This document shows positions 4,079 through 60,000 of a DNA stretch of 64,000 nucleotides, piece by piece. The position numbers and the translations under genes were made by a program. The notes under the pieces were generated by a model that made no database searches, was not told the DNA's origin, and saw only the letters and a list, made by a program, of their open reading frames with translations. The stretch is from Utricularia gibba (Eukaryota > Streptophyta > Magnoliopsida > Lamiales > Lentibulariaceae): contig NEEC01000017.1 in NCBI GenBank assembly GCA_002189035.1, positions 806,001-870,000 on the forward strand, in the 5' to 3' direction. Every line of letters starts with the position of its first letter. Position 1 is the first letter of the stretch.

Positions 4079-5365
4079 TTAACTGGGAATGTTAGTTGAT
4101 TCTTGTTTCGTTGGGGAAGTGAAGAGATTGGGAGATGAAGTAAACGTGGAGAAGAATTTATGACAGGTTTGATCGAAAACGATACAGGGTGAGGGATCGT
4201 GTTCCTCTGTGACACTACGACTATCAAAATTGGATGGGGCTTCTGATTCGTCATCAATTATATTTGGTGATCGGGAGGGCTCTTCGTTCTGATGTGAAGA
4301 TGATGATTCTTGCACGTCGTTTCCTCGGATCTTCATCCAGTCTTGCTGGTCGCCCCAGTTTGGGAAATTGGAACCCGACTCGCTTCCGATCAAGCAGAGG
4401 ATCCTGATCGCCGGAGGATCTGGAGACGAGGGGATCGCTCTGGAGGATTCTGGATCCTCCATTTGGTCCCAAAATGCTTGATCCACCACACTCGTCGGAG
4501 ATTCTCTGGTGGGTACTCTGAAATTGCCGGAATCCTCATTGATGAAGGGGTGGTGTAACAGCTCTGCCGCCGTCCACCGCTCACTGGGGTCTTTCATAAA
4601 GCACCTAGCGAGGAAGTCCTTGGCTGTGTTCGATAGCGGATCAGGGAACTGCAGCGCGTCACTGGAGTAAGCTACTCTGTGAAGGACAGAGACGGGATCC
4701 TTGATCTCCGGCCAGGGATTAGATCCCGTCGCCATTTCGACGACTGTGCAACCTAGAGCCCAAATATCTGCCGAATACCCCTGACTCTCCCCTCGAGCGA
4801 CTTCTGGCGCCATGTACGCCGGCGTTCCGGCGATCGCAGATTCGCCAATTCCTCCCCATTTCGCACATCCAAAGTCGCCGATCTTAACCTCTCCGTCGCG
4901 AATCAAAATATTCTGCCCTTTGATATCACAGTGCACGAGCCCTTTACCATGGATATAGTCCAATCCCTTCACAATCTGATGAGAAAAATACTGAATACTC
5001 TTCTCATCGAGCGATCCCCCTCGGCTCCTAATCAGATCGGAAACCGTACCTCCGGCGGCATACTCCATAAAAAGATTAAACATCGCTTTTCCTCCATCGC
5101 GCGTCACATCGGAACCCAAGCACTTCACGACGTGCGGAGAGCATAGCTCCGACATCACGCGCTCCTCATTCCGCAGCCCACTGGAACAACAGAGATCAGA
5201 TGACTTAACGGCGAATACCTCGCCGGAAACGGCGGTTGCGAGGTAGACGGTAGCGGAGGAACCGCGGCCGATGACCGGACCCCGTTTCCATTCCATTTCA
5301 GAAAGACTCCGAATTGACCCCTCCCTCAAAGCATCGCGTCGCAGGTGCCCACCGGAGGCGCCCAT
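4079..5365 (-). CDS. MAP kinase kinase kinase, MEKK subgroup (MAPKKK15/16/17/18-like)
   Basis: Single-exon Ser/Thr kinase of 428 residues. This size and the intronless layout are typical of plant MAPKKK15-18, which act upstream of MKK3 in ABA and stress signalling. The kinase domain begins at about residue 25: glycine loop VIGRGSSATVYLA, ATP lysine in FAVKSS (K54), HCDIKGQN catalytic loop (D147), DFGCAKW (D164) and GTPAYMAPEVA (180-190). It ends near HHPFI. The C-terminal 150 residues are Ser/Pro/Glu-rich with no domain I recognise. The N-terminal extension is short. Next to GGP the gene sits head-to-head across about 2 kb containing a CCACGTGG G-box, and Arabidopsis MAPKKK15/16 also lie close to VTC5/VTC2, which favours orthology with those two. 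Confidence 0.93.
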   Translation of the reverse strand: MGASGGHLRRDALREGSIRSLSEMEWKRGPVIGRGSSATVYLATAVSGEVFAVKSSDLCCSSGLRNEERVMSELCSPHVVKCLGSDVTRDGGKAMFNLFMEYAAGGTVSDLIRSRGGSLDEKSIQYFSHQIVKGLDYIHGKGLVHCDIKGQNILIRDGEVKIGDFGCAKWGGIGESAIAGTPAYMAPEVARGESQGYSADIWALGCTVVEMATGSNPWPEIKDPVSVLHRVAYSSDALQFPDPLSNTAKDFLARCFMKDPSERWTAAELLHHPFINEDSGNFRVPTRESPTSVVDQAFWDQMEDPESSRAIPSSPDPPAIRILCLIGSESGSNFPNWGDQQDWMKIRGNDVQESSSSHQNEEPSRSPNIIDDESEAPSNFDSRSVTEEHDPSPCIVFDQTCHKFFSTFTSSPNLFTSPTKQESTNIPS

Positions 5366-5794
5366 TTATAGGCGAGAGTGGTTCTGATTACGTGTACGCG
5401 AGCACAGGTAACCATGCGTGGACCTCGTGAAGAAAGAATCCTGTCGGACTACTCCACTTTTCACGATTCCGGGAATTTAACCCCCGCCGACGCTCCGCCT
5501 CCGTCGGTGACGGCCACAATTAATTCATCTCACTCTTCCTCAACTTTTCTTACATTATAATAACTAATTTTAAAAATACTAAATATAAAAATCAATAATT
5601 TGACAGACTTCTAAAACAGGTCCACCCTTTTTTTCGAGTTAATTTGAAAAATACACACTGTAGTCTTTTACTGTGTTTAGAAAACTATCCGTGTATTTTT
5701 TTGTGTTTAGTGTGTGTGAGAGAAATGTACAGTAGTTAAATTTCAAAATGACCCCCTTTTTCTCCCCCACATTGACCTTTAGATCCACAATTGG

Positions 5795-7090: not shown

Positions 7091-7297
7091 GAGGTGGCGA
7101 TTTAAGAATGGGTGTCCGTATTAGTCTGGCGGCGGGGCCCGGTGTCGAATATTCTATCGTGCGCTTGGGTCTTTAAAGGGAGCTAGGGGTGCCCTTATCT
7201 CGATCGCACCCCTCGTCGGAATCCTTCACTGAGAATCGCTGGAGTCTGCGCGCAGGTCTCTTGGGGGTGAAACCCGGGCCGACGAGTTGTTGACATC

Positions 7298-7471
7298 ACG
7301 GCTGTTTTATTAGCAATTCGTCGGAGCTTACATGTCCGAAAAGTACGACGCAAGGGTTGTGTGACCGAGAGCAACCCTTCGCCGCACGGAGGACGCGGAG
7401 CTTTGCCGTCTGAAGGGGGGTGTCCTTCAGATCTTCTGTTTCTTGCTGGAGGGGGTCGTTTTCTCCACTAA
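7298..7471 (+). CDS. Conserved-peptide upstream ORF of GGP, ACG start
   Basis: A 57-codon ORF in the 5' leader of the GDP-L-galactose phosphorylase gene. It has no ATG in frame. It runs from an in-frame TGA at about 7269 through ACG at 7298-7300 to TAA at 7469-7471. The C-terminal part reads SPHGGRGALPSEGGCPSDLL followed by FLAGGGR, the peptide known to be conserved in plant VTC2/GGP leaders. In that family, translation from a non-canonical ACG is required for ascorbate-dependent repression of the main ORF, which gives feedback control of vitamin C. The ACG position, peptide and spacing (about 110 bases to the main ATG) all fit. An 11-codon AUG ORF (7332-7364) overlaps it in another frame. 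Confidence 0.93.
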   Translation, partial: TAVLLAIRRSLHVRKVRRKGCVTESNPSPHGGRGALPSEGGCPSDLLFLAGGGRFLH

Positions 7472-7580
7472 GGCGGCACCTCTGTTTTTGTAAATTCGTT
7501 CGTGTCTCCTGACTGTTCGTACGTCTGTGTTGTTTCTGCTATCTTCTGTTTAACGAGGGAGTGTGGTGTTGAAGACGATG

Positions 7581-9473
7581 ATGCTCAGGATTAAGCGGGT
7601 TCCTACTGTTGTTTCTAATTACCAGAAGGACGAGGCTGAGGATGGCGGCTGCGGCCGCAATTGTCTTCGAAGTTGTTGCCTTCCTAGTAAGTGTTCCATG
7701 CTTTCTTGATTGGTTGATCTGATTGATTTATGGTAGACTGTTTATTAACTACGGCCTTCTTTTGTTTTGTCCAGAGGCGAAGCTGCCTTTGTATGCTTTT
7801 AGGAAGGTCGAAAATATTGATCTTGAAAAGGAGATTATTGCCTGTGGAAATGAAGACACCTCGGTGGATTTCCTCAACTCCGTTGTGCTGGCTGAGGTAA
7901 AAACTCAATTCACGATCTCGTTGTTATGATATGGGCTAAGCACTGACTGGCTATCTCTCTTGTTTTCAGTGGGAAGATCGTATGCAGAGAGGCCTCTTCC
8001 GCTATGATGTTACTGCTTGTGAAACCAAGGTTTGCCTTTTTGCCCATCTGTTTCCTAAATTAGATGGTAGTTTGATCTGGTCATAACTTATTGCTTAGTT
8101 ATTCGGCGTTCTCTCCTCAATGATGGAAGAAAGAACAAAAAAGTAGGAGGTTTTTTATTTGTGTAGAGTTGAGAATTATTTTTCTGACTGCTGACTTTGA
8201 TAGAATAGTCCAAGTGTGAACATTTTTTCTATGGCGTACAGAATTTTTGTTTTTTTAGTGCCACGAAAGTCTTTTTATCTGCCTGCTGTTATTTCGAATT
8301 CTTAGCAGTTGATTGTGTTTATTAGGTGATTCCTGGAAAGCACGGATTTATTGCTCAGCTGAATGAGGGAAGACACCTCAAGAAGAGGCCAACTGAGTTC
8401 CGCGTTGATAAGGTTTTGCAGCCATTTGATGAGAACAAGTTCAACTTCACTAAGGTTGGCCAAGAAGAGATCCTCTTTCAGTTTGAGCCAAGCAAGAACA
8501 GCGTTGCTCAGTACTTCCCTAGTGCACCGGTGAATAGCCAAAAGCTGCAGAGTGTTGTAGCCATCAATGTATGTAACTGGTTCTTGTTTTCAACCCAGCT
8601 AGCATTTTCTTATCATTCAGTTAAATTTTGCAGGTTAGTCCTATTGAATATGGGCATGTGCTCCTCATTCCTTCGATCCTTGAACGCCTTCCTCAAATGA
8701 TAGACTGTGAAAGCTTCTTACTTGCTCTCTACATGGCTGTAGAAGCAGGGAATCCGTACTTCCGTGTTGGCTATAATAGCTTGGGTGCCTTTGCAACTAT
8801 CAACCATCTTCACTTTCAGGCTTATTACTTGGAGATTCCTTTTCCAATCGAAAGGGCGCAGTCGAAGAAGATAGCCACCACAACTAATGGGGTGACAATA
8901 TCTGACATTCTGAATTTCCCTGTTAGATGTCTGGTTTTTGAGGGTGGTAATTCTCTCAAGGATCTATCGAATGCTGTCTCCTACTCATGCATTTGCTTGC
9001 AAGAGAACAACATCCCTTTCAATGTGCTCATTGCAGACTCCGGGAGGCGTATTTTCCTCATCCCCCAGGTTAGATTCGAACTCAAACCATTATCCTTTAG
9101 CTCCCTTGCATCAGGAAACATCATCTAACTTTCTGAATGGGCGCAGTGCTATGCAGAAAAGCAGGCTCTCGGTGAAGTGAGCCCCGAGCTGCTGGACACA
9201 CAGGTGAATCCTGCAGTTTGGGAGATCAGTGGGCACATGGTGCTGAAACGCAAGGAGGATTACGATGGGGCAACTGAGGAGAAGGCATGGAGGCTCCTTG
9301 CCGAGGTATCCCTCTCCGAAGAGAGACTCCAGGAAGTGAAGGAGCTCATATTTGCTGCCATCTGCAATGAGACCAAGGCCGAGGAGGCTACTGCCAATGC
9401 CACCATCCCTGCACCATCTCGTGACAATGTCGACTTTCTCCCAACCCCCCCAGCCAAGATGGTCCCTGTCTAG
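7581..9473 (+). CDS. GGP: GDP-L-galactose phosphorylase (VTC2/VTC5 type)
   Basis: First committed enzyme of the Smirnoff-Wheeler ascorbate pathway: GDP-L-galactose plus phosphate gives L-galactose-1-phosphate plus GDP. Exons: 7581-7686, 7775-7896, 7970-8029, 8326-8568, 8634-9068, 9147-9473. They sum to 1293 nt, giving 430 residues (Arabidopsis VTC2 is about 440). The N-terminus LRIKRVPTVVSNYQKDE is the family signature. The HIT-superfamily catalytic motif is H235-L-H237-F-Q239 in INHLHFQAYYLEI. An ATG at 7578 directly precedes the chosen ATG at 7581; MLRIKRVP is preferred because homologues begin that way. A conserved ACG-start uORF lies in the leader and should give ascorbate feedback on translation. 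Conserved residues look intact. Confidence 0.97.
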
Positions 9474-10172
9474 ATGAAACAGGGCGCCTCTCCTATAACC
9501 CCAAGGTCGCATAAACCATCTCTTTCTGAGAGGGCGCTTCTGCTATTGGCCTCAGACCTCAGAAGCAGCTCCCCTTTTGTTTGTGTTAATCGTGCAGTGT
9601 CAGTGTATGTGCTACTTCCGCTGTTGGATATCATTCTTCTTCTTGTGTGTAAATGCATCAAGGCTGTGGAAATGCTTTGTTCTTATCATCTTCACATCAA
9701 ATGTGTGCGCTGTGTGAAATTTGTGTAAAATGTTGGGGGCGCTCGGAAATAATATAAATGAGGAAAGGGGTAAGATTGTAATTTCATTTGGGAGGAGAGG
9801 GGAGAGGGTACGGATATGGAATCTATATAGAATTTTCTCGGGCGCTCTGTGATGGCGTTGCCCTGCTCAGGTTTTATGGTGCGTGCCCTCACCTCACCTC
9901 ACCTCACCTCGTCGCTCGCTAACAAAAGAAACGATTTTTAGACAAAAACGAAGCTTCTCTTTGCCGCAAACAAATTACCCGCCAAAAGGTTAATTTTTAA
10001 GTTTCTTCTTTAACGATTTTTCACACAGGGGAATCTTTCGCCTCCAAGGGTTCGTTTTCCTACCCAATTCATTCCTTCACATGGGTCTTCGTCCTATGCA
10101 GGTTTCGTTGCAGTCGCATCTTCGCCACGTGGGTTGTTGGGCGATTTGCTTCCTGGGTTTTGATTTTGTTCC
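9474..10172 (+). other. GGP 3' UTR and PHD-gene promoter/leader
   Basis: The GGP 3' UTR probably runs to about 9750 (AATAATATAAATGAGG near 9746). A pentanucleotide run (CTCAC)n lies at 9887-9910, in a position that fits the PHD gene promoter or leader. A second CACGTG core is at 10126-10131, close to the PHD start codon. No further gene is seen. Confidence 0.5.
9887..9910. repeat. (CTCAC)n short tandem repeat
   Basis: About five perfect copies of the pentamer, upstream of the PHD-finger gene. C-rich pyrimidine repeats are common in plant leaders. Confidence 0.85.
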
Positions 10173-13100
10173 ATGGAATCGACTCCAGATGTTGCTTTAC
10201 CCGTTGCGCCGGAATTGAAAATCCATGGTAAGAGGCCGTTGCCGGAGGTGGAGGATGGGCATGTATCGGAGAGCTTGGCTCCGAAGAGGGTTAAAAGGAT
10301 GAATTCCGGCTTTGAAGAGGACGTGAAGAAGGTAGCCGAGATAGTGTTAGTTTTGTCGGCTTTGGGGAAAATGAGGGGAGGAAAAGGTCCGACCGATGTT
10401 GAAAAGGAATTGATGGAGACTGCCAGGAGTAGGTTAGCGAAGGCTTGCGAGGGTTTTACGCCCGGGGAGGTTTTTCCCAAGGACGCTTTTGGTGGGTTGA
10501 TAGAGGATTTGGGTCTTAATAAATTGAAGGATCAAAGGCTAGGTTTTCGTCCACAGAAGATATCCATTGCAGAAAAGTTGGCAGTTTCAATGAAAAAGGT
10601 CTGTCTTTTGACAAAGAAACTGGGTTTTAACTTTTCGATATATTTTTCTGTCCTCCCCATTTGATGCAACTTCATTCAATTTGAGATTCCTTACGTTATA
10701 TTACCAGATTAGATTGCCAAGTGATGAGTGGTGCGTATGCTGAATAAAATGCCAGTGATTCTGGAGCTTTTCCCATTTCTATTGAAACATGCTTAGTGTG
10801 TGGTATGTGCAACAATGATGAGCCATGACGAAAATTATGTCATCCCTTCTTTGTACTTTTTTGTTTGTTTGTTTGATTTCGGTGCTGGATCCTCATTGTC
10901 ATTTTTTTTATCAAATGATTCATCTCCGTCTGGGACGATTGTTATATTTGCCATTGCTGTTACTTCTGCTTCAACTGATTGTTATGATGATTTTTTTTCC
11001 CCTCATTGTTAGATGGCAAAAGCGGAAGAATTTGCTATTAGGTCTGCTCAGTCAACTCATCACCCAGAGAGTACTGTGCCTGCTGCTGAAGGTCGAAGTG
11101 AGTTGCATCCCATACGAACGTCAATATCAGATAAACCAATTCATGCGTCACTCTCCAGTGGAGGCTTGCAGCCTGGCCGTAACAGTAGTGTAAGCCCAGC
11201 ATCTCGTTCGTATCAGCTTCCCACCAGTGAGATTAGACCAATACCCTTGAGTGGAACAGCCCTTCCTAGAGATGATAGTTTGCACCTTAGATCAGACAGA
11301 AGATTCAGTGTTTCTACACATCCATCTCAGGCACAAGGTAAAAAAAATATTGATTTGCGTCTAAATGATTTTCTTTTTTTGTCAAGCATAGGATTTTTTT
11401 AGGTTGAGTGTATGCTAGTTAATTTTACTTGTATTCACTGATCGGCCGTAGATACCTCTAAATAGGGCTTGCTGTTCCTTTTTAGTCAACTTCTAGCCAC
11501 TCAAATTTCATGCTCCATGATGAAAAATTTCTTTTTAACGTAACAAGGCTTTTTTATAGCTTCTCATTATTTCTTTGGAAGATGTGCCCTGATGAAGAGC
11601 CATTTTGATACCCGTTCTATATCACTTGAGTTACACTAAGCCTCTATTATTTGCACAGCAGCAAACTACTCTGCTAACTCAGTGGCAAAAGCATCAACCT
11701 GGCAAGTGCAACATCATGCACCCGTGTCCTCAAATTTAGGATCTGATGTTAAAGTGCCTCTGCATAATGCTAGATCAGGATTTGTTCCTCAAACCACATC
11801 CAGAACATTTTCTGCTCAGACAATTGGAGGACTCCACCCACAAGGTGTTAGCCCTGTTCAGACGCTATCTTTGAGAAATACACATACTGAAATTGTGAAG
11901 ACTGTTCAGAAATTATTGAGGCCACAGGTTACTGAGAGCCCTACATGGGATCCACCTTCTAGAGATTATATGAACAAGGCTTTGACCTGCCAAATCTGCA
12001 TGTCCATGGCTACAGATGTGGATAGCATATTGATATGTGATGCTTGTGAGAAAGGGTATCATTATGCTAAATGCCTTGGCATGAAGGAGGTTCCAAGAGT
12101 AGAATGGCACTGCGCAAAATGCTTATCTTTGAGTAATGGCAAACCTTTACCTCCAAAATATGGCCGTGTCATGAGAAATGCTAATACAGATAAGATACCT
12201 TCAAATTCAGACACTGGACCAGCCTCCACAAGTATTCGGTCTGATGCTTCAGATGAGAAGGTCAGCCATCCAAGGGCATTCCTGAATGGTAGCATTGCAT
12301 TGGGGAGCAATAGTAATGTTGCTCTACATATCTCTGGGTCACCCCCCAGTGAGCCAAAGATGCTGGGGAGCACTAATTCATCTTTTGGTACTTCTCCTGA
12401 AAGTTTGAAGCCTTCCAATCCCATTGACACTTCAAGAACGTCTGTGGGTACACATTCGGATTCAAAACAGAATCCAACTGCAGAGGATGCCAATTTTGTT
12501 GATACATTAGTTGATGCTCCCAGTTGCCTTGAAACAAGCTCATTTGGGAAATCATGTGATGATTATGTCATGCTGGCAGACTCAAAAGACTCGCAGCAAA
12601 ATGATAGTGTTCCACATAAAGATAATGAAGACTTGCACAAATATCCTACTGAAAGTATCTTGAGTTCCAGCAATGTAAACCAGGACGTATCTTCTGTAAG
12701 TGAAACTCATGCAACCCATTGGATTGGTGAACCCATTCAAGTCTCTGGAGAAAATTATTTTTACGCATCTTGCTATATCAATGGGAATTCATATAGTGTC
12801 TCGGATCATGCTCTTATGCTCCTTGACAGTGGCAAGATTATCCCTGCAAAGATACAGGCATGTGTCATTTTTTTTTTGCTAGTTTTTTCATTCATCTTAA
12901 ATTGCGTGTGTTGATGATTTTTTTTTTTTTTTTTTATCAAACGCATTTACTTACTGTGCATAACGTAAAGAGGGAATATCTTCTTCGCAAGGAGCTGTGC
13001 CTGTTAACCAAATGGTTAAATTGCAGGCTTTTTGGGAAGATAAAACCAATGCAACGAATTGGGTCACTGCAAACCAGTGCTACTTTCCAGATGATTTTCC

Positions 13101-13653: not shown

Positions 13654-14556
13654 GAAGGGAACTGGCACTTCCATGTAGTTAGGTGCGTAATTCACATTGT
13701 TCGTATACTTGGAACAAAGTGTTTAATCAAAACTGCTTCTGGTTCAAAGTACTCTCCGTCTGGTTACTGTACGAGTATGCATGAAGAACTCCTGTATCTG
13801 TGGATTTCGCATTGAAAATCCCCCCCGTGTGATTACTCCACTAGTAGGTTGTTGCTGCAGAATAGCCCTTGAATTTGGCTTTTGTATGCAAAGTAGTTGT
13901 GACTGTGCGCGTTTGAGACGGGAGTCAAGAGTTTGTCTAAAACGCGAATGATCATCAGAGGATTTCCAATACGAAGGATTTGAAATTGTACTCCAGAGGA
14001 TTTAACAATCCTACGATCATCTTAGGAGTCGATATGCAGTAGTTAAGCCTCAAAAGATACAAACATCTAAAGGGGAACCGTGGAACTATCCATGGTGTGC
14101 TTGGAAGAGGCTCAGTTGCAGAAATGTGAGATGGGGCAGCCTCCTGGTTCATGGGAGAGAGCTCCCATTGGTTTGCGGTCCAATGGCTTTGTTTGTGCTA
14201 AGTTGGCTGGCTGGCTGGACTTGGGGATGCTGCAACAAGATGGTTTCCTGCTCTCTGTTCATCGATTCATGAAACCTTACGGGGACTTGACTCCATCACA
14301 GACGGATGGTCAATGGTGGCTCTTCTCCTCTTCCCAGGAACGAGTTTCAGTGACCAGAGCTGCACAGAAGAGAAGGAAAAGAATCGGTCGTTGCCTAAAG
14401 TCTTTCAACAACTGTATACGCTACCCACGATTCACGCACTTGTATGAGAAAGAAAAAACCTGCCTTTTTCACATTTCAACAACTGTCCGCCATTGATAAA
14501 CCCCACTGGTAGCTGAATTGGGCGGCGGAGCCCTAATTGCGACTGCGAAGGGAGGA
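13654..14556. other. Intergenic: PHD 3' UTR and protease promoter
   Basis: An ORF at 14080-14496 (plus) has no domain, no splice-consistent extension and a random-looking composition, so I do not call it. A short TGGC repeat lies at about 14203-14217. Otherwise nothing is recognised. Confidence 0.4.
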
Positions 14557-47358: not shown

Positions 47359-50300
47359 ATGAGGTTGAAGCGACGAAGGGCACTTGAAGTGGTTTGTGAA
47401 ATTCATATCGTTCTGTTGTTTCGCGCAATCTTTGTCTGGATTACAGCCCCGTATTTTTTAATCTAGTTTAAACCCTAGTTTCTGCACCCTTTTTATTACT
47501 TCACGGATTTGTATGCTCATCATCTAGAAAATCTTCTTAATTGCTTCAGTTTATGTCAACCGGAAGACGATAAATTTTAAATGGACACACATTTGTCTAC
47601 TAGAAACGCCATGTTTTTCCATCTATTGCTACGGATTCAAAGTGCAGTTGAATTTTGAGTTCTACATAAGATGGAGATGATGAATCTTCATTTTCTTTTT
47701 CAGCCTTCAAAAATCAAGTCTTTCATCAACCATGTTACCACTACACCATTCGAGAAGATAGAAGAGCCATTAAGAGGCTTTTCTTGGGAGTTTGATAAGG
47801 TGCAGTAGTCATTTAAGACCTATGCCGATTTTACTTTTCTCTAATCTTCTTTTTCTTTTTTTGACTCAGGGTGATTTCCATCACTGGGTTGATTTGTTCA
47901 ATCACTTTGATACCTTTTTTGAGAAGTTCATTAAGCCAAGGAAGGATTTACAGCTTGAGGACAATTTCTTGGGATCAGATCCTCCCTTTCCGAGGGATGC
48001 TGTATTGCAGATTCTCCGTGTTATACGAGTCATATTGGAAAATTGCACCAATAAGCATTTCTATAGTTCATATGAGGTAGATTGTTTCTGTGTATCTTTT
48101 TTTGGGAATTTTTGGACACAATTCAAGCCTCAACATGATTTCCGTTGAATACACATGCTTCACATTCATATGTGGTAATCTGATTGTTTTATGTTTTTTT
48201 TTCACTTCAAATAATTTTTTGTTTTTGGTGCAGAATCACTTATCATCCCTGCTTGCATCTACTGATGCAAATATTGTGGAGGCATGTCTTCAGACTTTGG
48301 CTGCTTTTTTGAAAAAATCCATCGGAAAATATATTACAATGGATGCTTCCCTCAATTCGAGATTGTTTGCCCTTGCACAAGGCTGGGGTGGAAAAGAAGA
48401 GGGCCTTGGGTTGATATCATGTGCTTTGCCAACCGGGCCTGATCCTATTGGGATTCAGCTGGGTAGCACCCTTCATTTTGAGTTCTATGCGACCAGTGAA
48501 TCATCAGATGAACCCTTGGCCGTTGAACAGCCAACTAGAGGTTTACAAGTTATTCATATGTGTGATGTGCACACAAGAGAAGAAACTGATCTTGAACTTC
48601 TAAATGAGTTGGTCATTGAACATAAAGTTCCTCAGAATTTGAGATTTTCTCTCCTCACAAGATTGCGATTTGCTAAGGCTTTTGGCACCATTGATGCACG
48701 CCAACAGTATACATGTATACGCCTGTGTGCATTCATCGTTCTTGTCCAGGCTTGTAGTGACGCAGATGTCTTGGTTTCTTTCTTCAATGCTGAGCCAGAG
48801 TTCATAAATGAGTTGGTCACCATACTGAGCTATGAAGATGCTGTTCCTGAAAAGATTCGTATTCTAAGTCTTCTTTCTTTGGTTGCTCTTTGCCAAGATA
48901 GGTCGCGCCAGCCAACCGTATTGACTGCTGTGACATCTGGAGGGCATCGTGGTATTATATCTAGCCTGATGCAGAAAGCTATTGGATCTGTTGTGAATAA
49001 TTCATCAAAGTGGTCAGTAGTTTTTGCTGAGGCTTTGCTATCCCTTGTGACTGTTTTGGTGTCATCATCGTCAGGCTGTTCAGCCATGCGAGAAGCAGGT
49101 TTTATACCAACCCTGCTACCCCTTCTGAAAGATACAGATCCTCAGCACCTACATTTGGTGAGTACAGCTGTACATGTTCTGGAAGCCTTTATGGACTACA
49201 GCAACCCAGCTGCTGCACTTTTTCGTGATCTTGGTGGCCTTGATGACACAATAGCCCGTCTAATGATAGAAGTCTCTCATGTTGAAAGCGGATTAAAGAA
49301 TAATCGTACAGACATTGACAATGATAATACAGAAGATGGTTCATCCTTAGGAGTTACGGAAAGTGCTGCTGAACTTGATAGTCTTCACCCTCTTTATTCT
49401 GAGGCACTAGTTTCTTACCATCATCGTTTATTGATGAAAGCTTTGCTACGTGCCATATCCCTTGGGACATATGCTCCTGGGACAACGGCACGTGTGTATG
49501 GTAGTGAAGAAAGTTTATTGCCTCATTGTTTGTGCAAAATATTCAGAAGAGCAAAAGATTTTGGTGGAGGTGTCTTTTCGCTGGCAGCCACAGTGATGAG
49601 TGATTTAATACACAAGGATCCTACCTGCTTTACCGTACTGGAAGCAGCAGGCCTTCCCACTGCATTCCTTGATGCAATAATGGATGGTGTTCTCTGTTCT
49701 GCAGAGGCAATTTCTTGCATACCTCAGTGCCTAGATGCTTTATGTTTGAATAATAGCGGCCTTCAAGCTGTTAGAGACCGCAATGCTTTGAGATGCTTTG
49801 TGAAGGTTTTTACTTCCAAGCAGTACTTAAGAGCCCTTGCTGCTGACACTTCAGGTTCCTTGTCCAGTGGACTGGATGAACTGATGAGGCATGCTTCTTC
49901 TTTGCGTGGACCTGGTGTTGATATGCTGATTGAAATATTGACTACCATAGCGAAAATTGGATCCGGACTTGAATCTGCTTCATCACTGGAGTCACCTAGC
50001 TGTTCTCATCCTGTTCCTATGGAGACTGAAACTGAGGATAGAGATGTGGTCTTAATAAATGATAGAGACTCATCCAGGATTGCGATTGGTGGAGAGCAAT
50101 CAACTGATCAACTCATGGATGCATCATTGACAAATTCAGAATCGTTTTTGCCTGTTTGTATTAGCAACACAGCTCGTCTTCTTGAGACGATTCTCCAAAA
50201 CTCTGATACATGTCGAATTTTTGTTGAGAAGAAAGGGATCGAGTCTGTCTTGCAGTTATTCACGTTGCCTATCATGCCCCATTCAGTTTCTCTTGGACAA

Positions 50301-53300
50301 AGTGTAGCTTTTGCATTTAAGAATTTTTCCCCTCAACATTCTGCTTCTCTTGCTCGTGCATTATGCTTCTTCCTGAGGGATCATTTGAAGTCAACAGAGG
50401 AACTGTTGACGTCAGTGGGTGGATTCCCACTTAAACAGGCTGATTCCGCTGTTAGAGTAAAGATTTTGAGATGTCTCTCTACTTTGGAAGGTGTTTTATC
50501 TCTTTCTAATTCATTGCTGAAAGGAACTACCACGATCGTGTCTGAACTTGGCTCTTCAGATGCAGATGTGTTGAAAGATTTGGGGAAGGTTTACAGGGAG
50601 ATACTGTGGCAAGTTTCTATGTGTTGTGAGTTGAAAGTGGATGAAAGGCAGAATGGCGATGTTGAGAATGACGGTAGTGATGCAGGCCCATCTACTGGGG
50701 CTGGAAGAGAGAGTGATGATGATGCCACAGCACCCTCTATTAGGTACATGAATCCAATATCTACAAGAAATGGTGCACACCCACCATGGGGTATTGAACG
50801 TGATTTTGTATCTGTTATACGTTCTAGTGAAGGCTTTAGACGCAATGGTAGACATAGCTTGGCTCGCCTGCGAAGTGGTAGAGCTGGTAGGCAGTTGGAA
50901 GCTTTTCATGTGGACTCAGAGGCTGGAGTAAATAATTCGGAATTCCTCTCATGGAACAAAGAAGATAACTCCTGAAACGCTGGTCTTGGAAATTGTTAAC
51001 AAGCTGGCTTCCACCATCCGCACTTTCATGACAGCATTAGTGAAAGGCTTTACATCACCCAACCGACGAAGGACTGAAACTGGGTCTTTAAGTTCTGCAT
51101 CAAAAAGTATTGGAGCTGCCTTAGCAAAAGTTTTTCTTGAAGCTCTTGGCTTCCCTGGATATACTGGATTTTCTGCAGTAGATGTTCTTACTGTGAAATG
51201 TCGCTATCTTGGTAAAGTGGTTGATGACATGGTGGGTCTCACATTTGATAGTAGGCGGCGCACTTGTTACACTGCAATGATCAACCATTTCTATGTCAAT
51301 GGGACTTTCAAGGAGCTTCTCACAACGTTTGAAGCAACAAGTCAGTTGCTGTGGACTGTCCCTTGTGCGATGTCCACACCTGATCATGATAAAAGTGGTG
51401 TTCTGAAACAATCCCATGGTTCCTGGCTTCTTGACACATTGCAGATTCATTGTCGAGAGTTGGAATATTTTGTGAACTCGAGTTTAATTCTATCATCAGC
51501 CTCATCTTCTCAAACCCAGCTTCTTGTTCAGCCGGTTGCAGTTGGTCTGTCAATTGGGTTGTTTCCTGTTCCTAGAGAACCCGAAGCATTTGTTCATATG
51601 CTGCAATCTCAAGTTCTGGATGTTGTACTTCCTGTATGGAACCATCCAATGTTTCCAAATTGCAGTCCTAGCTTTATTTCATCAATCATTTCACTGATAA
51701 CTCATGTATACAATGGTGTATTTGATCTGAAACAAAGTCGCAATGGAGTATCTGGATCTGCAAATCAGAGATATGTGCCTCCATCCCCTGATGAATCTAC
51801 TGTTGCAACTATTGTTGAAATGGGTTTCTCTAGGGCGAGGGCTGAAGAGGCTCTAAGAAGAGTTGAAACAAACAGTGTTGAAATGGCAATGGAATGGCTG
51901 TTTAGTCACAATGAAGATCCTGTTCAGGAGGATGATGAATTGGCTCGTGCATTGGCTTTGTCACTCGGAAGTTCATCTGAAAATCTGAAGGTTGACGGTC
52001 CTGATAAGTCTGCTGATATTCAAACAGAAGATGGCTCCCCCAAAGCGCCTCCTGCTGAGAGTATACTTAATGTTGCTATGAAGTTATTTCAGAGCAGTGA
52101 CTCAATTGTTTTTCCGTTGACAGATTTATTCAGGACGTTGTGCAGTCGAAATAATGGGGAGGATCGTACAAAGGTAATTTCTTATCTTGTCAGGCAATTA
52201 CAGCTTTGCCCACTTGACTTCTCCCAGGATAACCCCGCATTGGGAATGATATCACATACTCTAGCGTTGCTTCTCTCAGAGGACGCAAGTACTAGAGAGG
52301 TTGCTGCAGAAAATGGGGCTGTCTTGATTATTGATATTTTGGAGAATTTTACATCTCATTTTGAGCCCACAGATCATGTTGTTGTCCCGAAATATGTTAG
52401 CGCATTACTCCTTATTTTAGATAATTTGGTGCTTTCCAGACCCAAGATACCTGGTGATACTGATGAGGGTAATTTGCCTGGTTCGGAAAACAAAGTTGCA
52501 TCTGAGGATGCTGAGCAAAAATCGATTTTTGAGAAGGCAGACAAGGGTAATACTGTTCTCAGTGATCCTTCTGTTTTTGTAGCAATATTGGGAAAGCCAA
52601 CGGGTTGTTTGACTATGGAGCAGAGTCATAAGGTACTTGCAATTGCATGTGAGCTGATGAAAAGGCGTGTACCCTCTATGACTATGCAGGCTGTCCTTCA
52701 GTTATGTGCTCGTTTGACAAAATCACATGCGTTGGCTGTGCAGTTTCTTGAAAGTGGAGGGTTGGCTGCGCTTTTTAGCCTTCCCAGAAGTTGTTTTTTT
52801 CCTGGTTATGATACCTTCGCTTCTTCTATTGTAAGACATCTTATCGAAGATCCTCAGACACTGCAGACAGCTATGGAATTGGAGATTCGACAATCTCTTA
52901 GTGCCAACAGGCATGGTGGTCGCATATCAGTAAGGACATTTCTGACATCAATGGCTCCTGTTATATCCAGAGATCCAGAAGTTTTCATGAAATCTGTTGC
53001 AGCAGTTTGCCAGGTAGAGTCATCTGGAGGAAGAGCTTTCATCACGTTGTCCAAAGACAAAGAGAAAGACAAAGAGAAGGCAAAATCAACTGGTGAGACT
53101 GGAGTGTCAGTTAATGAAGTACGTATTAGTGAAAATAAGGTTCATGATGGGTCTGTGAAGTCTGCCAAGGGCCATAAAAAGATATCTGCATACCTTACGC
53201 AAGTGATCGATTACCTTTTGGAGATCATATTAGCCTATTCCTCAAATAAAGAGAATGAAATTGACAATTCAAATGCAATGGAAGTTGATGAGCCGAGTAG

Positions 53301-56300
53301 TAAAATAAAAGGTAAATCGAAGGTTGGTGAAACAACAAAAACAGGATCCGAGAGTTCGTCACATAAATCAGAAGCTCTAGCCAGAGTGTCATTTGTTCTG
53401 AAGTTGTTGAGCGATATCATACTCATGTATGTTCAAGTTGTTGGAGTTATTTTGAGACGGGATCTGGAACTGTATCAGCAGCGTGGTTCTAGCCATTTTG
53501 AATGTTTCGGACAGGGAGGCTTAGTTCACCATGTTTTACATCACCTTCTGCCCCTTTCAGCTGACAAATCTACTGGATCTGATGAGTGGAAAGATAAACT
53601 CTCTGAAAAGGCTTCATGGTTTTTGGTTGTGCTTGCTGGTCGATCTAGTGAAGGAAGAAGAAGGGTGGTGAATGAACTAGTCAAAGCTCTGTCCTTATTT
53701 ACAAAAATCGAGGGTAATTCATCTGTTAGTGTCTTATTACCTGATAAAAAAGTGCACGCTTTTGTTGATCTGGTATACTCTATTTTATCAAAGAATTCTG
53801 CTTCCGGAAACTTGCCAGGATCTGGATGCTCTCCTGATATTGCTAAAAGCATGATAGATGGTGGCATATTTCAGTGCCTCTCTAACATTATTCGGGTGAT
53901 CGATTTGGATCACCCTGATGCCCCTAAAGTTGTGAACGTTATAGTGAAATCTATGGAGTGCCTGTCAAGGGCCGCCAATACCAGTGAAGATATTGTCAGA
54001 GCAGATATTTTGAATAAGAAAAAAGTAAATGGCTCAGCTGGAAGGCCTGATGCAGAGCTTGCTGTAACAACAGCTTCTGGAAATTTAATGTCTTCTGAAA
54101 TCAGAAGCTCTGAACACAGAGAACCCAGTGCCACTGCCTCAGATTCCTTGCCTCAAGGTGATCAGCATGCAAATACAAACCAGTCGGTGGAACAAGAGAT
54201 GAGGATTGATGATGACCCATCTCCTGATAATCTTGGGGTGGACTATATGCGTGATGTGATGGAAGAGAGCGGTGATTTTTCTAACACTGAGCAAATTGAG
54301 ATGACCTTTCATGTAGAAAACAGAGTAGATGATGATATGAATGAAGAAGATGATGACATGGGTGATGATGGTGAGGATGATGAAGATGGAGAAGATGAGG
54401 ATGAAGATATTGCTGAAGATGGCACGGGTCTAATGTCCTTGGCTGATACGGATGTGGAGGACCATGATGATGCTGGCATGGGAGATGAATACAACGATGA
54501 TATTTTTGATGAGGATGATGATGATTTTCGTGAAAACCGAGTCATTGAAGTGAGATGGAGGGAAGCCCTTGATGGGCTTGATCATTTGCAGGTTCTAGGC
54601 CAACCGGGGACTGGGGGAGGACTCATTGATGTCTCAGCAGAAGCCTTTGAAGGGGTGAATGTTGATGATTTCTTTGGAATTCGCAGATCTTTTGGTTTTG
54701 AGCGCCGTAGGCAGGCTAGTAGAACATCCCATGAAAGGCCTGTATCTGAAAGTAGTCTTCAGCATCCTCTTCTTTTGCGGCCATCAAACTCTGGTGATTC
54801 GGTTTCTATTTGGTCGTCTGCTGGGAATCCTTCTCGGGACCCAGAGAGCATTTCTGCTGGTAACCTTGACGTTGCTCATTTTTATATGTTTGATGCTGCT
54901 ATTCTTCCTTATGACAGTGCAGCAACTAATCCATTTGGTGATCGATTGCGTATATCTGCACCTCACCAAATAGCTGATTTTTCTGTTGGTTTAGAGTCCT
55001 TGCGTGGATCAGGTCGGAGAGGGCCAGGTGATGGTAGATGGACTGATGATGGCCAACCCCAAGGTGGTGGCCAAGCAGCTGCAATTGCTCAGGCAGTTGA
55101 AGTGCAATTCATTTCACAATTAAGTGATGTGCCATCCAATAATGCTGCTGAGAGAGTTCCCCAGAGCCAAGAGGGGCATCCCACCACGGGGTTTGAAAGC
55201 CAACCTACTGTGGAAATTGATAACGACTCCAGTGCACAGGATGATAATCATGTCAGTAATGCGTATGACACGAATAATGAGAGAGAACAACTGCCAAGGC
55301 CCGTTGAAGTAGGCTCTTTTGTTGATTCTGGAAGATCTATTGAGTCTCTACATGCAGGGGAAGATGTGCGAAGTGACACTGGCAATGATAGTATGGAAAC
55401 TGGGGATGGGAACACAATTTATAGGGAACCGACCTTGTCTGGTTCTATTTCTCAGGATGATATGCCCACAGAAAGGCCTTCACAGGGTCTTCTAGGTTCT
55501 GGGGTGCAGCCATCCCAGCAGGAGGACCCCGGGAGATTCTCAGGTTTAAATACTTGTGTATTTTTCAAGCTTTTGCTGATTTCTGGATCTGAATCGTCAA
55601 TTAATGCTCACCTTGATGCTTCTGTTTCAGGAACTAGAGATGTTGAGATGAACCTCACGGAATCGGAAGGAGATCAGACTGGTCCGGGGTTACCTGTGCC
55701 AGAGCCATCATTGCAAAATAGGGTCCTTGTTCAAGAAGGTGGTCGGGCAAATGATAGCGCTTTTACTACTGAGTCATCTGATGAAAACGGTATAGACCCA
55801 ACATTTTTGGAGGCGCTTCCAGAGGACCTGCGAGCTGAAGTTCTTGCTTCACAGCAAGCCCCATCAGCTCAGGGTCTCTCTTCACAACAAGCTAGGTCTG
55901 CTCCTTATGCCCCACCTATTGCTGAAGACATTGATCCAGAGTTTTTGGCTGCTCTTCCTCCTGATATTCAAGCAGAAGTTCTTGCTCAACAAAGAGCACA
56001 ACGGATTGCGCAGGAATCTGAAGGACAGCCAGTTGACATGGATAATGCTTCAATAATTGCCACTTTTCCTGCTGATCTGCGTGAAGAGGTAGGATCATAT
56101 GCAGTAGACACCTTTAATGGATTTTTGTTGCTCACTGATCTTATGTCTTTTAGGTGCTTTTAACTTCTTCTGAGGCTCTGTTATCTGCATTGCCATCTCC
56201 TTTACTTGCTGAAGCTCAAATGCTGAGAGACAGAGCAATGAGTCATTATCATGCCCGCAGCTTTTTTGGAAGTCGTCAGAGACTTAATGGCCGGGGAAGT

Positions 56301-56984
56301 AGGCTAGGTTTTGACCGACAGACTGCAATGGATAGAGGTGTTGGAGTTACCATTGGTCGAAGGGCGTCTGTTGCTGAGAGCTTGAAGCTCAAAGAGCTTG
56401 AGGGGGAACCCCTTTTGGATGCTAATGGCTTGAAAGCATTAATTCGGCTCTTAAGACTTGCACAGGTACTCAATCTGTATGCTTTATTAGCAGGAAATAC
56501 TGATGTTACAGCACCCTCTAGTTAATAAGAATTCATAATCTGTCTTTTTAGTAAGTAGATCCACTTACTGATTATTTCACAGTTCTATTGTGGTTTATAC
56601 TACTTGAGCCTTTTTCTTCATTTCTTTTCTTTCTTTCTTTCTTTTTTTGTTTTTTTGTTTTGTTTTGGCTATCTGTATGGTGTCTACTCATTCAAAATTC
56701 TCCCGAACCGACCCACCTGTTTTGTAGCCACTTGGGAAAGGTCTACTGCAGCGGCTTTTCTTGAACTTGTGCTCACACTATGATACGAGAGCAACGCTTC
56801 TTAGGCTTCTTCTTGATATGATGAAGCCTGAGACAATGGGAACCACTGGCTCTTTGACTAAAATGAATACTCAGAGGCTTTATGGATGTCAGTCTACTGT
56901 TGTTTATGGAAGGTCTCAGCTGTGTGATGGTATGCGAATTTCCTCTTCCTGAAATGCGTTATTTTTGTTATAAAATCTTTGCTG

Positions 56985-57027
<43 letters not shown>

Positions 57028-60000
57028 CTATAGAAGTGAAATTTTATGAGATGTGTTAACTTCATACAGGTGTTCCACCCTTGGTCCTTCGACGGTCCCT
57101 TGAGATACTCACCTACCTGGCAACGAATCATCATGGTGTTGCAAGTCTCCTGTTCCATTTTGAGGGCCCAGAAACCCCTGAAAGTTCATGTCGTGATGAT
57201 AGCATAGGCAATAACGGGAAGGGCAAGGATCAAATTATGGGTGCACAGCATGAACTTGGCCCTTCAGAAGTTTCACAGAATAGGGATGTTCCTTTTATAT
57301 TACTCCTCAAACTTTTAAGTCAACCCCTTTTTTTAAGGAGTACTGTGCATCTCGAACTGGTATGCATTGATATACCGAAAAGTCATTACCCATCTTTGAA
57401 AATATATGAGCTCATATTTTCGTTTATTTGAAAATGAAGGTGATGGGATTGCTCCAAGTTGTTGTGTATGCAGCAGCATCAAAGGTGGAAAATCAGTCTA
57501 GGGCAGAAGAACCATCTTCTCACCAAGAAACCACATTGGAAAGTGCGGTTGAAGACCATACTAGTAACAATGAATCCCTAACTGAATCGCAGCAACATGT
57601 ACAAGATGAAAATGTAGTGGATGCCAAATCGGATGTTCAAAAAGCTGCAAGTGCAACTTCTGTTTTCTTACGTGTGACGCATTCTGATTTACATAATCTT
57701 TGTGGACTTCTTGGGCATGAAGGGTAATATGTTATCCACAAATGGTCTCCAGCATTACCATTTAGTAGTTTTCCATCATTTTGTTCTGTATTTTACTCTA
57801 CTTATGCCATAAAATGTAGTTTTCACAAACAATGTTTTCTATTTTTTCAGGCTTTCTGACAAAGTCTACACATTGACTGGGGATGTCCTTAGGAAGTTGG
57901 CCTCAGTTGCTGCTGCACATCGGAAGTTTTTCATTTTGGAACTTTCACAGTTAGCCCAGGTTTTGAGTAGCTCAGCTGTTGATGAACTTATTACACTCAG
58001 GGATACAAACATGCTGGGTTTGAGTGCTGGTTCAATGGCAGGGGCTGCTATGCTTCGTGTTCTTCAGATTCTCAGCTCTATTACTTCAGTCAAAAGTGAC
58101 ACTGCCAGAATAAATGATGAAGAACAAGAAGAACAAACTACCATGTCGAGATTACATGTTTCATTGGAGCCATTGTGGAAGGAACTAAGTGAATGCATCA
58201 GTACTATGGAATCACAATTGAGTCCAAGTCCCCTTTCTGCAGCTGTTTCTAACATTCAGGATTTGGTTCATGGCTCCTCTTCGGCATCCCCTGCTCTTCC
58301 ACCTGGAACCCAGAGACTCCTACCGTTCATTGAAGGATTCTTTGTGCTGTGTGAAAAATTGCAGTCAAGTAACTCAGTGGTGCAACAAGATCACTCAGAC
58401 ATCATTGGAAGAGAAGTGAAAGATTCTGTTGGGACTTCAACTATGTCAACTAGCAAGGGCATAGACTCTCATAAAAGATTTGATGGGTCTGTCACATTCT
58501 TAAGGTTTGCTGAAAGGCACCGACGTCTGCTTAATGTCTTTGTGAGGCAAAATCCAGGATTATTGGAAAAATCACTCTCTATGATGCTGAAAGCTCCTCG
58601 GCTTATAGACTTTGATAATAAAAGAGCTTATTTCCGATCTCGGATACGTCAGCAGCATGACCAGCACCTTTCTGGCCCACTTAGAATTAGTGTAAGACGG
58701 GCATATATTTTGGAAGATTCATATAACCAACTTCGCATGCGACCAAGTCAAGACCTGAAGGGCCGATTGAATGTTCATTTTCAAGGTGAAGAGGGTATTG
58801 ATGCTGGTGGTTTGACTAGGGAATGGTATCAAGTACTTTCAAGAGTAATATTTGACAAAGGAGCCTTGCTCTTCACCACTGTTGGAAGCAATGCGACGTT
58901 TCAACCAAATCCAAATTCTGTATATCAGACTGAGCATCTCTCTTATTTTAGATTCGTTGGCCGTGTGGTAATTACAATTTGATCCCTGTTGGCTTCAAGA
59001 TATGTATCCCTTGTGTTTTTTTTTTTCTTTTTTGGCTTCATCATATTGTTGTATTACTCCTTGTAGGTTGCAAAGGCCCTTTTTGATGGACAGCTGCTTG
59101 ATGTCTATTTTACTCGTTCCTTCTACAAGCACATACTTGGTGTGAAGGTGACCTATCATGATATAGAGGCAGTTGATCCCGATTACTACAAGAATCTGAA
59201 ATGGATGTTGGAGGTATATTTTTTTTTAATAAAAATTACATCCGTGATCTTTAAATTCATACAGTAATTTGGGAGTGGTGCTCTCCTCTGCAGAATGATG
59301 TCAGCGATATACCTGATCTGACATTCAGCATGGATGCTGATGAGGAAAAACACATTCTTTACGAGAAAACTGAGGTACTAGGATGCTTCTTTTCTGGACA
59401 TTTGCGAACTTACCCGCATGTGTGCGTTTCCTAACATGGTTCTTTATTCCCCTCTCGTGAAGGTCACGGATTATGAACTCAAACCGGGAGGAAGAAACAT
59501 CAGAGTGACAGAAGAAACGAAACATGAATACGTTGACCTTGTTGCTGATCATATCCTAACAAATGCAATCCGCCCACAAATAACTTCATTCCTTGAAGGG
59601 TTCAATGAATTAGTACCACGGGAGCTGATCTCCATTTTTAATGACAAGGAGCTCGAGTTGTTGATCAGTGGTCTTCCTGAAATTGATCGTAAGTCTGAAC
59701 GCCCTCTGACAGTTTTATAGCCTTTACCAAGGAACTTTTCATTTAACTTGGTGAATTTTCAGTGACGGATTTGAAGGCCAACACCGAGTATACAGGCTAT
59801 ACTTCTGCATCAAATGTCGTTCAGTGGTTCTGGGAGGTCGTTGATGGGTTCAGCAAAGAGGATATGGCCAGACTGCTACAATTTGTAACAGGAACCTCCA
59901 AGGTGCTTCATCTAGAACTTCATCATCCTGTTTCCGTTACAGTCATGTGCATTAGATAGATACCCAGAAACACCTTATCTTCTGGTTCAGGTTCCTCTGG

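Follow-up and report, generated by a model that had tools for sequence, protein, structure and literature searches.

We analyzed a window of 64,000 nucleotides (nt) from Utricularia gibba (assembly GCA_002189035.1, contig NEEC01000017.1, positions 806,001 to 870,000 of the forward strand), in which an upstream open reading frame (uORF) of 57 codons with an ACG start precedes a gene for GDP-L-galactose phosphorylase (GGP, VTC2-type). This uORF is an already known kind of element, found at its expected place, and is in that sense ordinary. There is, in our judgment, very little doubt that it is the orthologue of the published conserved-peptide uORF of GGP genes (VTC2/VTC5), which would repress GGP via its nascent peptide, and do so more at high ascorbate. 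The GGP uORF is thereby confirmed in one more plant, in both of the copies found after duplication. Exact coordinates can now be given for an element overlooked by ATG-based annotation, and a constrained core (residues 11-55) could be mapped against freely changing ends.

The uORF occupies positions 7298-7471 of the window on the forward strand, in the 5' leader of the GGP gene, and consists of ACG, 56 further codons and a TAA stop; its translation gives 57 residues, TAVLLAIRRSLHVRKVRRKGCVTESNPSPHGGRGALPSEGGCPSDLLFLAGGGRFLH. An earlier note on this DNA had described a 57-residue peptide with an ACG start and no in-frame ATG, and the translation of 7298-7471 agreed with it to the base. The stop-to-stop frame around the uORF extends from 7271 to 7471 (66 amino acids) and contains neither a methionine nor an in-frame ATG. 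A Pfam search with the uORF peptide recovered no family, and none of the 75 (viral_contigs) and 589 (genome_contigs) pattern stretches retrieved from two collections without plants was confirmed as a relative of the peptide.

The stop codon of the uORF is separated from the ATG of the GGP gene (7578) by a spacer of 106 nt (7472-7577). We placed the GGP coding sequence (CDS) by eye, using splice signals and the paralogue alignment, on the forward strand at 7578-9473; it encodes 431 amino acids in six exons (7578-7686, 7775-7896, 7970-8029, 8326-8568, 8634-9068, and 9147-9473). The protein carries the two features by which PMC6878703 characterizes GGP (this and the other published accounts are cited from excerpts): HLHFQ, an instance of the HIT-type H-phi-H-phi-Q motif, and KKRP. 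Searches with the GGP protein against Pfam and against PDB sequences, both with E up to 10, gave no family and no relative. The name of the gene at 7578 thus rests on the motifs, the gene structure, and the known sequence of plant GGP.

When the U. gibba genome (100,091,633 bases in 516 contigs) was searched with the uORF peptide, both scored candidates were matches, one being the window itself and the other a locus on a second contig (C480), where the uORF also has 57 codons and the peptide is 88% identical to the window copy. A search of the same genome with a GGP fragment gave four matches among five scored candidates, all four at these two loci. The uORF is thus present at 2 of the 2 GGP loci found, and both uORF matches adjoin GGP; such a search scores only the best candidates, and a diverged third GGP copy could exist. 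Between the two copies of GGP itself, we obtained a synonymous divergence (Ks) of 0.515 and a non-synonymous divergence (Ka) of 0.069.

Alignment of the two copies revealed the uORF as an island in which 149 of 171 nt are identical, between flanks that have diverged: the 150 nt preceding it agree in 72 of 153 alignment columns, and the spacer agrees in 24 of 106 (62 columns being gapped). The 22 substitutions within the uORF fall 4, 5, and 13 times on codon positions 1, 2, and 3. Counted base by base in the ACG frame, with codon 57 outside the count, 13 are synonymous and 8 non-synonymous, against 3/18 and 2/20 in frames 1 and 2, both of which contain stops in both copies. The peptide has a conserved core from L11 to F55 (codons 11-55, window 7328-7462, forward strand), where a single substitution out of 12 is non-synonymous; so few were obtained in none of 50,000 random placements. 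For the whole uORF we estimated a Ka of 0.08 and a Ks of 0.33 (Ka/Ks 0.24). As judged by the paralogue in the same genome, the uORF peptide is conserved under purifying selection.

Several observations weigh against the identification as the published GGP uORF or narrow it. The conservation tests come from one paralogue pair, with both sequences taken from one genome. The Ka/Ks ratio is higher for the whole uORF than for GGP (0.133). Codons 3-10 are poorly kept (5 of 8 residue-differing codons) and the last two residues (56-57) differ as well, so that not all of the 57 residues matter. Finally, the likeness of the peptide to the published GGP uORF peptides, such as those of Arabidopsis and kiwifruit, is presumed.

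The same alignment bears on the start codon. At the head of the conserved frame, the two adjacent triplets AUC-ACG (7295-7300, forward strand) correspond to both candidate start codons published for this uORF (PMC6878703), and it is there that conservation of the frame begins. The upstream extent of the uORF is bounded by an in-frame TGA (7268-7270, forward strand), located 8 codons 5' of AUC-ACG. Over these 8 codons only 9 of 24 nt are identical to the paralogue in an ungapped comparison, and an insertion or deletion lies directly 5' of AUC in the alignment. The start is thus of the non-AUG type, with ACG (7298-7300) in a good context, position -3 being A and position +4 being G in the window copy and the paralogue alike. 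Frame conservation from AUC-ACG and the shared ACG context fit initiation at ACG, or possibly at AUC. A start farther upstream, within the open frame 7271-7294, was ruled out, as the frame is not kept there between the copies.

These features correspond to what has been published for GGP. Excerpts of PMC11066809 describe a uORF with an ACG start for which feedback by ascorbate has been proposed, while the peptide is said to be undetected and direct evidence for ascorbate itself to be lacking. The wheat GGP uORF starts with AUC or ACG and has 56 or 47 residues (PMC6878703); the rice GGP uORF has 60 residues and an ACG start, and its editing raises ascorbate (PMC12559526). A large ribosome-footprint peak has been reported at the annotated rice GGP uORF (PMC11440899). 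A review gives lengths of 60-65 residues (PMC7084844), and its account of the GGP uORF and that of PMC11062462 agree with the others, as far as the excerpts go. With 57 codons, the U. gibba uORF lies within the published range of about 47-65 residues. Conservation of the GGP uORF from mosses to angiosperms is stated in PMC12559526, citing Laing 2015. Compared with the GGP (VTC2/VTC5) uORF of Laing et al. 2015, as known from these excerpts, the gene, the position in the leader, the ACG (or AUC) start, the lack of ATG, the length class, and the frame-conserved peptide are the same, and we noticed no material difference; in U. gibba the element is present in both GGP copies found. In wheat, TaGGP1 resembles the U. 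gibba uORFs in its AUC/ACG start and its 56 residues, whereas the TaGGP2 uORFs are shortened by 11 residues and both U. gibba uORFs have 57 codons (PMC6878703). The uORFs of SAMDC, PAO, S1 bZIP, and XIPOTL1 are similar in that a leader peptide alters translation of the main ORF upon a metabolite (PMC6878703, PMC11062462), but these genes are unrelated to GGP.

The earlier note had called the element the known cis-acting ascorbate sensor of VTC2-type genes. The element agrees with a GGP/VTC2 non-AUG uORF in where it lies, in its ACG start and its length, in lacking an ATG, and in being conserved in the paralogue, and the frame-biased conservation that the note had proposed as a check was observed in the one same-genome paralogue (13/8 against 3/18 and 2/20). 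The word "sensor" is too strong: in the excerpts available, repression by the GGP uORF is established in other plants, whereas direct sensing of ascorbate would still belong to the model. By analogy with those plants, the window uORF is presumably transcribed and translated and presumably represses GGP. Scanning ribosomes would initiate at the strong-context ACG in a fraction of passes, the 57-residue peptide would be made, and its core may act on the ribosome during synthesis. The ribosome would then stall or be lost and fewer ribosomes would reach the GGP start; in other plants, such repression has been shown with reporters. Ribosomes that skip the ACG would make GGP. In the published model, high ascorbate strengthens the repression, which would place the rate-controlling step of vitamin C synthesis under feedback.

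The uORF could alternatively repress GGP merely by capturing ribosomes, the peptide sequence being incidental and ascorbate having no direct part. We consider this unlikely: the residues of codons 11-55 have been kept while synonymous sites changed, and according to a 2024 review (PMC11066804), an altered amino acid sequence abolishes the feedback.

A further layer of information in the leader was suggested by two features lying within the uORF. The first is a nested AUG mini-uORF in the +1 frame (7332-7364, forward strand), which encodes MSEKYDARVV followed by a stop and has a putative role. In the paralogue it reads MSGKYDARVV, with the AUG, the length of 10 codons, and the stop kept and one residue changed. 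Three substitutions fall in this frame. Two of them, at 7361 and 7363, leave the nested peptide unaltered (V is kept and TGA becomes TAA) and jointly replace V by I in the ACG frame; that at 7339 shows the reverse pattern, being silent in the ACG frame and changing a residue in the nested frame. With T at both -3 and +4, the nested AUG is in a weak context. It may simply follow from the peptide sequence, because the CAT GTN pair coding for His-Val itself creates such an AUG.

The second feature is a possible RNA hairpin (7352-7379, forward strand), weakly supported, with arms at 7352-7360 and 7371-7379 that form 9 pairs (one G-U) around a loop of 10 nt. The nested AUG lies 17 nt 5' of the hairpin, whose loop contains the stop codon of the nested frame. 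The arms are identical in the paralogue, both changes of the segment being located in the loop. The hairpin falls within codons 15-32 (7340-7393), a run of 18 codons and 13.5 synonymous sites without any synonymous-only difference between the paralogues; the longest such run in the 431-codon GGP CDS comprises 9.3 sites. The probability of this run is 0.048 at the synonymous rate of the CDS and 0.126 at the rate of the uORF itself.

Some recodings of the segment folded as well as the natural sequence. For the window copy, these were 116 of 2000 when recoded by codon usage and 44 of 2000 when recoded uniformly; for the paralogue, they were 90 and 41 of 2000, respectively. The 8 Watson-Crick pairs of the hairpin were reached by 32 of 400 and 26 of 400 recodings. 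If G-U pairs are included, the 9 pairs of the paralogue were equalled in 251 of 400 of its recodings; the window copy has another, longer stem of 10 pairs, which 152 of 400 recodings attained. The stability of the whole uORF is ordinary, since recoding by codon usage gave at least the same stability in 211 of 300 and 203 of 300 cases. The hairpin, the nested AUG, and the synonymous-free run were all picked after looking at the alignment. The statistics for such an extra layer are weak and do not carry a claim for the nested AUG or the hairpin. Neither feature is mentioned for the GGP uORF in the excerpts of the literature surveyed, which is not evidence of their absence from print.

We see slim chances for a double-coded GGP leader, in which the nested AUG would take ribosomes leaking past the ACG and the choice among ACG, nested AUG, and GGP would be set by RNA structure together with the nascent peptide. 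Slightly less probable again is a conserved element that is chiefly RNA, in which the hairpin and/or the nested AUG would govern repression and the ACG frame would be a passenger. The change-free synonymous sites, more numerous than in any run of the GGP CDS, speak for such an element, as do the unchanged arms and the two loop changes that spare the V and the stop of the nested frame. They are countered by the modest probabilities of the run, by recodings that fold as well, by a stem that is unremarkable once G-U pairs are admitted, by a whole uORF no stabler than its recodings, and by substitutions that are plainly codon-structured outside codons 15-32. Moreover, a scan of the window against Rfam at the gathering score gave no match. 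A riboswitch-like RNA was also considered and rejected as unproven, given the lack of an Rfam match, a shuffle z of -0.92 (39 of 200 shuffled sequences folding equally well), and the equal stability of whole-uORF recodings. A chance open frame without function has a negligible probability and was ruled out by the coding constraint in the paralogue, since the island between diverged flanks shows coding-type substitutions in just one of its frames. We thus retain the identification as the conserved-peptide uORF of GGP.

The locus on C480 (L007) shares with the window, besides the uORF and GGP, one neighbouring gene, 80% identical over window 4560-5517, as well as short segments at 14027-14278; since these are shared, it corresponds to a duplicated block rather than to a lone transposed gene. 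The neighbour duplicated beside the second GGP is protein-kinase-like (window 4079-5365, reverse strand; an ORF of 428 amino acids, named by eye). The paralogous stretches at 4079-5365 (reverse strand) and 14027-14278 align with L007 7-969 and 6086-6509. An intervening gene at about 10174-13000, PHD-finger-like by eye, has DNA matches to L007 only just 5' of its ATG (9912-10089). Judging from these stretches, the two blocks are a fractionated duplicated block. The spacer between the uORF stop and the GGP ATG, 106 nt in the window, has 44 nt in the paralogue (L007 3174-3217); its length has shifted while the uORF was kept.

Elsewhere in the window, very long open frames of 964, 1743, and 389 amino acids extend over 48081-58982 on the forward strand and resemble a giant HECT-type ubiquitin ligase, a likeness seen by eye only, with no family search run. 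Lastly, a short CTCAC repeat lies at 9888-9910, between GGP and the next gene.
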